Source: a virus
DNA length: 27,787 nucleotides
Strand: one strand, 5' to 3'
Virus record (IMG/VR): IMGVR_UViG_3300034024_000089
Location: 1-27,787 of that record
The notes beneath the pieces were generated by a model. The model was not told the origin of the DNA, made no database searches, and was given only the letters and a program-made list of their open reading frames with translations. Below are positions 67 to 27,787 of the stretch, piece after piece. Both the position numbers and the translations under genes were made by a program. Every line of letters starts with the position of its first letter. Within the stretch, counting starts at the first letter, position 1.

Positions 67-230
67 AACACTAGATTGTTTACTACAATACATCATATTA
101 TATTTTAGACCAACACAAACAGAAATAAATAGTAATATTATACAACTATTTCTTAAAAAGAAATGGGATAAACCAAGTTGGGAATCATAAATAAAAATAC
201 AATTTTGAAAGCAATTCACAATCACTTTAG

Positions 231-1911: not shown

Positions 1912-2616
1912 TTACATCATTGTGTTAATGCGTATACTTGCTTTAATCAGTGCCAATGCAGAGATTTTAGACACGTGAATATCCTTTGCCTCATGGTGCC
2001 TGTTCTCACTGACCAGTTTTATAAATTCATTACCGTTCTCTGACCTCTGTATATACTTAACAGTAACATACTCCTCCCAATCGTCTATTTTTACACTTAA
2101 TAAATACATTTCGCCAAAAAAAAGATTATCAAAGCTCATTTCTTTATATAGTATTATATCGCCACTCTTAAGCAATGGGTACATACTATCACCTGTTACG
2201 ATTACCGCGCCGTCACATTTAGGAAGATTAGGGATTTTAATAGTATCCAATATCCTTTGAGGCTTATCATTATTAAATAATTCTTTTAAACCTGCAGCTG
2301 CCTCCCAGTCGTATAAAGGTATTTCCTGATTAGGGTGTATTTTATCTGTAGTCTTTCTATTAGTGACCATTTGTACTACACCAATGTCATCTTTTATCAT
2401 TAATCCTTTTCCTGATATTAACCAAGTAAGGTTGATTTCAGGATAATATGACGAAATTTTAGCAATCACATCTCCTCCAACTTCACTTTTTAGACTTGAT
2501 CCTCTAAAATTAGAGGCTGATACTTCAAGTTCTTCAAAAAAATTTTTCTTATTAAAGCCTTTATTGTTAATGAATTGGAGTATTCTATTTTTTATGGGTG
2601 CTGAAATTTTGTCCAT
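1912..2616 (-). CDS. Phage repressor, S24/LexA-type self-cleaving
   Basis: A 234-residue protein with an N-terminal helix-turn-helix region (about residues 8-70, including FFEELEVSASNFRGSSLK and LTWLISGKG) and a C-terminal S24 peptidase domain. The catalytic serine is S144 in TGDSMYPLL and the general-base lysine is K187 in VTVKY. The likely self-cleavage site is A108/G109 in WEAAAGLK. By family, it should bind operators between itself and the divergent gene at 2679, hold the lytic genes off, and be inactivated by RecA-stimulated cleavage after DNA damage. It is transcribed away from the early genes, as the repressor of Mu-like phages is. Both active-site residues are intact, so the immunity switch looks functional even though other phage genes are broken. 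Confidence 0.88.
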   Translation of the reverse strand: MDKISAPIKNRILQFINNKGFNKKNFFEELEVSASNFRGSSLKSEVGGDVIAKISSYYPEINLTWLISGKGLMIKDDIGVVQMVTNRKTTDKIHPNQEIPLYDWEAAAGLKELFNNDKPQRILDTIKIPNLPKCDGAVIVTGDSMYPLLKSGDIILYKEMSFDNLFFGEMYLLSVKIDDWEEYVTVKYIQRSENGNEFIKLVSENRHHEAKDIHVSKISALALIKASIRINTMM

Positions 2617-10459: not shown

Positions 10460-11277
10460 ATGTGCAAGTTAGCAGGCCATTACTTCACTATCATGGCGGA
10501 AAATTCCTTCTTGAAAAGTGGATCATTAACTTCTTTCCGCAGCATCGTTGTTATGTTGAATCGTTTGGCGGTGCTGGTTCGGTTCCAAAAAAAGCAGATC
10601 GTATGCTGAAGTATATAATGACCTAGGTACCGAAATTGTTAATGTTTTTGAAGTTTGTAGAAGATCCGGAGCTGATTTAGTTGAGGCATTGAGAATAACG
10701 CCATTTAGCCGAATTGAATTGAATTTAAGCTATCAGTCTACTAACGACACTTTTGAGCAAGCACAACGTACCATAATTCGTTTGTATATGAGCTTCGAAT
10801 CAGCATCAGCCAGTGGCCAAAAGACCGGCTTTCGGGCAAACTCTAATAGAAGCGGATCAACACCTGCACATGATTGGATGAATTATACAGATGCGCTTCC
10901 GGCTATTATTGATCGTATGCGTGGCGTTATTATTGAAAATAAGGACGCTGTTGAAGTAATGATACAGCATGATGCTACATACTACATTACATTATGTTGA
11001 TCCACCCTATGTTTTAAAAACTAGATGTCGTAAGAAAAAAACAAGAAGTTACAATTTTGAAATGACAGACGAGCAACATGAAGTTTTAATTTCTAAATTA
11101 TTGCAGTTAAAGGGGATGGTTATACTTTCCGGCTATGATAATAATTTATACAACGGTCTGTTGCCCTGGCGTAAAGTTTATAAAAAGGCTTTTGCCAATG
11201 GTTCTGGTGAAAGAAAAGAAGTGCTTTGGACAAGCCCAAATACGAATTTGATAAATGATTTATTTAGTGTTGTGTAA
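10460..11277 (+). pseudogene. D12-class N6-adenine DNA methylase, frameshifted
   Basis: Three overlapping frames together rebuild a Dam-like D12 methyltransferase. Frame 1 (from about 10462) has HYHGGKFLLEKWI and the SAM-binding motif YVESFGGAGS; frame 2 (from about 10585) has AEVYNDLGTEIVNVFE and a long helical target-recognition part; frame 3 (from about 10975) has the catalytic motif LHYVDPPYV and the C-terminal ILSGYDNNLYNGLLPW. Breaks lie in a run of A near 10580-10592 and near 10975-10990. Initiation is also doubtful: the ATG at 10460 is out of frame. Such genes usually protect phage DNA from host restriction. The product is not made intact. Confidence 0.82.
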
Positions 11278-26916: not shown

Positions 26917-26947
26917 TGCACGTAAATAATCTTTAGAAGGCGGGATT

Positions 26948-27065
26948 AAAAAAAGTCCTCCAACATTTAAATAAAATTCTCACATCTAATTAAATAGCAC
27001 AAGCCACACGTTGGAGGACATAAGTCTTCTAATTGCGTGGCTTTTCCATTTATAATCTTGATATG
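26948..27065 (-). ncRNA. Candidate small RNA with pseudoknot and T7 terminator
   Basis: Read leftward. Stem A pairs AAGCCAC with GTGGCTT (plus-strand positions 27037-27043 and 27001-27007). Stem B pairs GTCCTCCAAC with GTTGGAGGAC (27010-27019 and 26955-26964), ten perfect pairs. The 5' arm of B lies inside the loop of A, while its 3' arm lies outside, which is an H-type pseudoknot. Stem B is followed on this strand by seven T (26948-26954), a terminator. A -7 box lies at 27073-27080. The implied transcript is about 118 bases and has no ORF. The start at 27065 is inferred from promoter spacing. On the plus strand stem A is followed by TTTT, so the element may also stop rightward transcription. 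Confidence 0.55.
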
Positions 27066-27072
27066 AGAGCCG

Positions 27073-27080
27073 CAAATATA
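27073..27080 (-). promoter_or_regulatory. -7 box for the candidate small RNA
   Basis: TATATTTG on the minus strand is a full TAnnTTTG match. The -33 box is weak: the nearest TTG is 26 bases away instead of about 20. Its position, about eight bases before the inferred RNA start, supports the RNA call more than it stands on its own. Confidence 0.45.
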
Positions 27081-27146
27081 ATAATCAATTTTAAATATTT
27101 AATCATCAATCAAAAAACGTAATAGAATCAAAACAAAATTTTTGCA

Positions 27147-27787
27147 TTGGCTCCACTGCCGTTCATGGGGCAAAAAAGAAAGTTTCTAAAGCCGTTTAAG
27201 CCTGCTTTAGAAAGATATCCGGCAGATGCTACTTATGTAGACTTATTTGGCGGCAGTGGCTTATTAAGCTACACTGTTAAGCAGTTATATCCTAACGCTA
27301 CTGTCATATACAACGATTACGACAATTATAGGGAGAGAATACAAATATTCCCAAAACGAACCAGCTTTTAAACGACCTTAGGGCTATATTGAAAAATTAT
27401 CTAAGAGAACAAAAAATTATTGGAGAAGTTCGTGATAAGATTATCAATAGGATACACAAGGATAATATGGCCGGCTATGTGGATTGTATTACACTCATCA
27501 GCTCTATACTCTTTCCAATGAAATACGTGCTTTCATGTGAACAATTACACAAGGAGACATTGTATAATCGAGTTGCGCAATCAGTTTATGATGCAACTGG
27601 CTATCTTGATGGTTTAGAAATAGTGTATATGTGCTATAAGGAACTATTCGCTAAATACAAAGATTTAGAAAATGTTGTATTTCTAGTAGATCCGCCTACT
27701 TATCAACAGACACCGGAACGTATAAAAGCTATTGGGAACTTCGGGATTATCTTGACGTGTTGCAGGTTAAGGAAAGATTGTAATTAG
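27147..27787 (+). pseudogene. Second D12-class adenine methylase, frameshifted and cut by window edge
   Basis: The first frame (from TTG 27147 or ATG 27168) has PLPFMGQKRKFLKPF, the SAM motif VDLFGGSGLLSY and YNDYDNYRERIQ. Losing one A near 27343 stops it; a second frame from about 27389 covers NYLREQKIIGEVRDKIINRI and the DGLEIVYMCYKELF helix to FLVDPP. At 27697 one T is missing, so the catalytic DPPY loses its Tyr; the repaired frame would read LSTDTGTYKSYWELRDYLDV. A further break is near the end of the window. The gene probably continues beyond. This is a different subfamily from the copy at 10460. Confidence 0.8.

Follow-up and report, generated by a model that had tools for sequence, protein, structure and literature searches.

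A pseudoknotted RNA family of Mu-type phages and Flavobacteriales genomes with a possible role in regulating transcription

Introduction

Near the right end of a phage genome, a short region separates a 109-amino-acid gene from a methyltransferase ORF. Does this region encode an RNA, on which strand is that RNA made and what could it do? The region lies in virus record IMGVR_UViG_3300034024_000089, which was analysed over its whole length of 27,787 bases and is referred to here as the window. The gene content includes a CI-like repressor, a Mu-type transposase (phrog_310), an AAA ATPase and tail-sheath, tape-measure and tail proteins. The combination of a CI-like repressor, a Mu-type transposase and tail-sheath and tape-measure genes indicates that the window represents a Mu-like phage with a contractile tail. 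A first-pass annotation, made from the letters alone, had proposed a free-standing minus-strand RNA with a promoter, a pseudoknotted body and a terminal U-run, and had named control of late genes, superinfection exclusion and a sponge role as conceivable uses. These signals can be read directly in the window, and homologues covary in both stems and in the pseudoknot, which argues for such an RNA.

Two further features of the window were observed. Methylase-like regions at 10462-11277 (named by eye) and 27147-27787 (adjoining the RNA locus) are each broken into pieces in different frames, representing either pseudogenes or sequencing errors. A lone CRISPR-DR50 direct repeat (177-222, plus strand, 57.2 bits, no array called) is located in the left part of the window beside host-like ORFs of 128 amino acids (231-617) and 141 amino acids (receiver-like, 659-1084; names by eye). 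It is perhaps a leftover in host flank and perhaps phage-borne.

Results

The RNA is predicted to form a long rod, with pairing between the apical loop and the 3' tail. All parts described here lie on the minus strand. A -7 promoter element, TATATTTG (27073-27080), corresponds to the Bacteroidota TAnnTTTG motif and places the predicted +1 at 27068, resulting in a predicted RNA of 121 nt (26948-27068) that extends from the promoter to the U-run. The outer stem P1 contains 9 bp (27068-27060 / 26986-26978) formed by UCUCAUAUC and GAUGUGAGA. The inner stem P2 joins AAGCCACGC (27035-27043) to GTGTGGCTT (= GUGUGGCUU, 27001-27009). Both stems are found in the fold and covary in homologues. P2 is the second stem of the first-pass annotation, which had assigned it seven pairs; the stem is present and consists of 9 pairs (27043-27035 / 27009-27001), one of them G-U. 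The apical region can form a mini-hairpin, P3 (GAAGAC-UUAU-GUCCUC, 27014-27029; arms GAAGAC 27029-27024 and GTCCTC 27019-27014), with a near-invariant loop and an A-C mismatch that is kept. In homologue L248, a G-C pair of P3 is replaced by A-U through changes on both sides. P3 rivals the pseudoknot for GUCCUC. The pseudoknot is formed by element a (GTCCTCCAAC = GUCCUCCAAC, 27010-27019), located in the apical loop, and element b (GTTGGAGGAC = GUUGGAGGAC, 26955-26964), its 3' strand. As described previously, a and b form ten perfect pairs (27019-27010 / 26964-26955) ending at a run of seven T (26948-26954), which directly follows b; these pairs are interleaved with P2. Beyond the U-run, element c (26936-26940) represents an alternative partner of b and reads CCUUC in the window and CCUCC in most homologues. 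The earlier label of an H-type pseudoknot is incomplete as a description of an RNA in which the apical loop of a long rod pairs with the 3' tail and a downstream element competes; the outer P1 stem, the small apical hairpin and the conserved element after the T-run had been missed.

The RNA is found in Mu-type (fF4-like) phages and Flavobacteriales genomes. Two homologous loci were reached by similarity to the window: locus L122 through the protein of the 109-amino-acid gene and Flavobacterium phage fF4 at the DNA level; the RNA is present in both. BLAST of one homologue against phages and plasmids returned no match, and a loose first pattern yielded, among the matches listed, no homologue beyond short chance similarity. 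With a search pattern derived from the loop and the 3' strand, 47 viral stretches (2 judged chance) and 39 genome stretches (6 judged chance) were identified; the matches dropped as chance (L150, L158, L174, L176, L181, L183, L192 and L194) were without the fold by eye and mostly coding-like. Covariance model R1 matches the window at 26949-27071 on the minus strand with 82.6 bits, and covariance-model matches were obtained in 10 of 397 genomes of one host family, 11 of 396 of one order and 3 of 395 of the phylum. In total, 99 sources gave 95 distinct cores. Named hosts, as judged from named contigs, include Flavobacterium, Myroides, Chryseobacterium, Capnocytophaga, Polaribacter, Aquimarina and Riemerella. 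The Mu-type transposase family was matched in 28 of the 44 virus and phage records carrying the RNA. Among 7 records with a length of 30 kb or more in which a relative of the window's transposase occurs, 6 also contain the RNA. The search pattern fixed GUCCUCC and GGAGGAC in most sequences, and the invariance of these motifs is therefore not counted as evidence. That the RNA itself is an artefact of the pattern was rejected because relaxed-pattern and covariance-model searches recovered the paired b variants GGGGGAC and GGAGGGC.

A single genome can carry several copies of the RNA. The chromosome of Flavobacterium sp. NK2020 (CP051546.1) contains three (L185, L190 and L200), probably in three related prophages. 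In L179, the promoter and the P1 5' strand are swapped for unrelated sequence while the remainder of the RNA is intact, which places a breakpoint of recombination or rearrangement within the RNA gene.

The rod is conserved in structure while its sequence varies. The minus strand of the window folds with an MFE z-score of -3.2, and its energy was reached by 0 of 200 shuffles. When the loop was kept open, all 66 homologues folded gave the P1-P2 rod. Under the same condition, the rod scores better than each of 60 shuffles for the window and for 50 of 50 cluster representatives, whose median z-score is -7.7 with the window as the weakest at -4.6. These shuffle tests reject a chance fold. Each of the eight outer pairs of P1 and the eight inner pairs of P2 is Watson-Crick in at least 55 of 66 sequences (at least 83%), mostly with 3-4 pair types. 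When strands of the same RNA are combined, the paired fraction among the 50 representatives is 0.98 for P1 and 0.93 for P2, compared to 0.49 and 0.44 when strands are swapped between phages; the contrast is strong, but it is not a formal test because the home-made register of P1 and P2 was taken from the MFE structure and favours own pairing. The compensatory changes in homologous prophages on which the annotation had beforehand staked the sequence half of its claim are present in the stems and in the pseudoknot as well. Dozens of related viruses keep the fold while nearly every letter of the stems changes, and the RNA therefore represents a real family. The apical loop is near-invariant and far more constant than the stems, with part of it fixed by the search pattern. 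Separately, nine bases of the repressor ORF (GTTGGAGGA, window ~2473-2481, minus strand) are complementary to the RNA loop, which could be chance.

The pseudoknot indicates which strand is selected. Folding energy alone cannot assign the strand because the plus strand of the window also folds well (z-score of -4.75); the comparative evidence can. Across nine positions of a:b in 94 sequences, the minus reading contains 33 G-U pairs, no A-C and one U-U, and no broken pair is observed in 8 of the 9 positions counted. The first seven pairs are mostly fixed by the pattern, yet positions 8 and 9 vary freely among the 94 homologues and stay paired. As each G-U pair on the minus strand would read as A-C on the plus strand, the ratio of 33 to 0 suggests that selection on the pseudoknot acts through the minus strand. 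In P1 and P2, G-U pairs are not in excess (12 G-U vs 13 A-C and 6 vs 13, respectively, in 66 sequences), so a role of the rod on the plus strand is possible as well; the same count does not discriminate between strands for b:c either.

Element c could compete with element a for element b. A perfect 5-mer complement of b is found within 26 nt downstream in 65 of 93 homologues (2.5 expected in shuffles). Where b contains GGGGG, 8 of 9 tails contain CCCC and all contain CCC; where it contains GGAGG, CTCC is found in 73 of 84. In L269, the b sequence GGAGGGC is matched by GCCCTCC downstream. The matching tails of the GGGGG variants and of L269 indicate that c changes along with b, whereas a remains GUCCUCC and accommodates the b variants through G-U pairs. 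Element b (GGAGGAC) can thus pair with a (GUCCUCC) in the apical loop or with c (CCUCC) downstream, and a:b and b:c are mutually exclusive because both use b. P3 (GAAGAC/GUCCUC) also uses a, so that three pairings compete for a and b. The window is a weak example of b:c, with c pairing only via a G-U. A possible hairpin around c, P4, has a stem of at least 5 bp in 17 of 35 cases, a modest signal. Element c could instead act in the plus-strand message.

Conserved signals flank the RNA. The -7 box noted just upstream by the annotation is a regular part of the locus: each of the 94 parsed homologues has a TAnnTTTG box, located 43-56 nt ahead of the loop, compared to 5% of shuffled 40-nt windows. 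Its TA is exact in 92 of 93, and a TTG is found 17-23 nt upstream in 57 of 93 (26.5 expected). In F. johnsoniae, the G of the TAnnTTTG consensus lies at -5 (PMC6847099); by this numbering, the first base of P1 falls within ~2 nt of the predicted +1 in 90 of 92 homologues, and the predicted RNAs have a median length of 120 nt. At least five T are found within 8 nt after b in 91 of 92 homologues. The stem preceding this U-run is the a:b pseudoknot, in place of the local GC-rich hairpin of an intrinsic terminator, and termination at this site is therefore putative. Two hallmarks of a free-standing small RNA, namely a promoter of its own on the RNA strand and a conserved secondary structure with compensatory changes, are seen in the sequences compared. 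In the window, a repetitive stretch, TTGATTGATGATT (~27080-27112), lies upstream of the -7 box; it is common to many, though not all, homologues and may represent a binding site or a simple-repeat expansion.

The RNA is located where late genes meet variable cargo. In the window and in homologous loci, recognisable gene families around the RNA are in the opposite orientation to it; same-strand clusters near it, defined by thresholds of our own choice, are short ORFs that we read as shadows of opposite-strand genes. The 3' end of the RNA faces late tail genes or small membrane-like genes that run towards it. Varying genes occupy its 5' side, with a thymidylate synthase-like protein cluster in 42 of 68 loci and D12 or C5 DNA methylases, an ABC-type ATPase, a GNAT protein or a formyltransferase in others; we infer that the non-methylase neighbours are also tied to DNA modification. 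The start of the neighbouring gene is often 70-90 nt from the RNA loop. Where positions were compared (e.g. G1136, G1152 and fF4), the transposase lies near the end opposite the RNA. The RNA is kept while the neighbouring cargo genes vary, indicating a probable role in the core life cycle of fF4-like phages. Within 3 kb downstream of the RNA no leftward gene family was recognised, so that any target of read-through is a guess.

Discussion

The conserved features are best brought together by a phage-encoded regulatory RNA in which a:b ends transcription before the late genes and the constant loop is kept for a partner, a reading that, on sequence comparison, we consider reasonably likely. Sequence comparison shows a host housekeeping-type promoter directly ahead of the RNA on the minus strand, P1 starting with the first bases of the RNA, a rod of P1 and P2, and pairing of a with the tail element b just before the U-run. 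In a lysogen, the RNA would be made from the prophage. The pseudoknot would act as a folding-dependent terminator, stopping leftward transcription ahead of the late genes, while contact with a phage or host protein, or with another RNA, may hold the near-invariant apical loop constant. Capture of a in P3 or by such a partner would allow b:c to form, leading to failed termination and more antisense RNA of the late region. In this model, the RNA would be not only a gene product but also a regulatory switch. The full form of this mechanism, in which the pseudoknot itself is the terminator and is undone by the competing partner of b, and in which the loop senses its partner and sets the level of antisense on the late genes, is rather doubtful.

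Alternatively, the RNA could be a small RNA acting in trans, with the U-run as a plain 3' end shielded by the pseudoknot, the constant loop GAAGACUUNNGUCCUCC binding a protein or host RNA and c being part of late mRNA. This is possible, if on the unlikely side. A promoter of its own, the U-run and a loop far more constant than the stems, although part of it was set by the pattern, are consistent with such a role; however, c changes with b and not with a, which an RNA ending at the U-run fails to explain, and a search for trans targets of the loop in the window and fF4 gave nothing convincing, including no convincing extended partner.

Two further explanations involve the rightward transcript, and we hold both to be improbable. 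The element might serve the plus strand as a bidirectional terminator and/or as the leader of the rightward DNA-modification gene, with minus-strand folding as a side effect. The plus strand does fold, its reading has a U-rich stretch after P2 and the spacing to the start of the neighbouring gene would suit a leader, whereas the 33:0 ratio of G-U to A-C in the pseudoknot, the TAnnTTTG box at the 5' edge of P1 and the U-run after b all belong to the minus reading. In a second model, the RNA is encoded in cis and targets the leader of the modification transcript, like the antisense RNAs of plasmid copy control. This would fit the position and orientation, and rightward read-through would be fully complementary to the RNA. 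Such antisense RNAs need no constant loop, but in the present family the stems vary around a constant loop, and the identity of the adjoining gene changes from phage to phage. We retain the regulatory RNA with a terminating pseudoknot as the preferred reading. Pseudoknot-dependent termination with a competing strand would, if true, represent an uncommon mechanism.

The RNA is absent from the RNA catalogues searched. The annotation had been unable to place it in a named family, and this holds for the window, its near relative L122 and further loci: Rfam 15 contains no family at or above the gathering cut-off for this RNA (window and 18 homologous loci), and relaxed searches returned only unrelated families far below the cut-off. 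The c4 antisense RNA (RF01695) and other phage RNAs in Rfam 15 are likewise phage-encoded and structured; they do not match even at relaxed thresholds. The loop sequence was not found in the literature searched. A GUCCY-hairpin motif is listed for Bacteroidetes and Proteobacteria without an Rfam accession (Weinberg 2010, PMC2864571); its name suggests a GUCCY hairpin, and by this likeness of name it could conceivably be an earlier description of the present RNA.

The pairing logic is similar to that of the CI RNA of satellite phage P4, which is complementary to an upstream and a downstream site (seqA and seqC) and controls transcription termination (PMC4825925). Here, b plays this part, with a as its upstream and c as its downstream partner (a:b and b:c), a likeness of logic with no claim of homology. 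In P4, the CI RNA arises by processing of a longer transcript and, in lysogeny, acts on the phage's own replication genes (PMC4825925), whereas this RNA has a predicted promoter of its own and points away from recognisable phage genes. P4 CI lies upstream of the replication genes in their transcript, ending it early, while this RNA is located at the end opposite the transposase.

The setting is similar to that of mom in phage Mu, where divergent promoters momP1 and momP2 lie beside a DNA-modification gene and the divergent promoter is preferred without the late activator C (PMC4287176). In both cases a promoter lies beside the DNA-modification gene of a Mu-type phage and is divergent from that gene's promoter. 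In contrast, no structured, conserved RNA is described for momP2 in the sections of that paper covering it, and the likeness drawn here is one of position, with no claim of homology. Closest to the window are fF4 and the fF4-like prophages, which represent the same phage group and in most of whose genomes a DNA-modification gene is noted among the last ORFs (PMC7761591). A term search of that paper returned no mention of this RNA, which fF4 carries. The family is widespread with strong covariation, and since at least one carrier, fF4, is a working phage in a culturable host, the expression and function of the RNA are directly testable.
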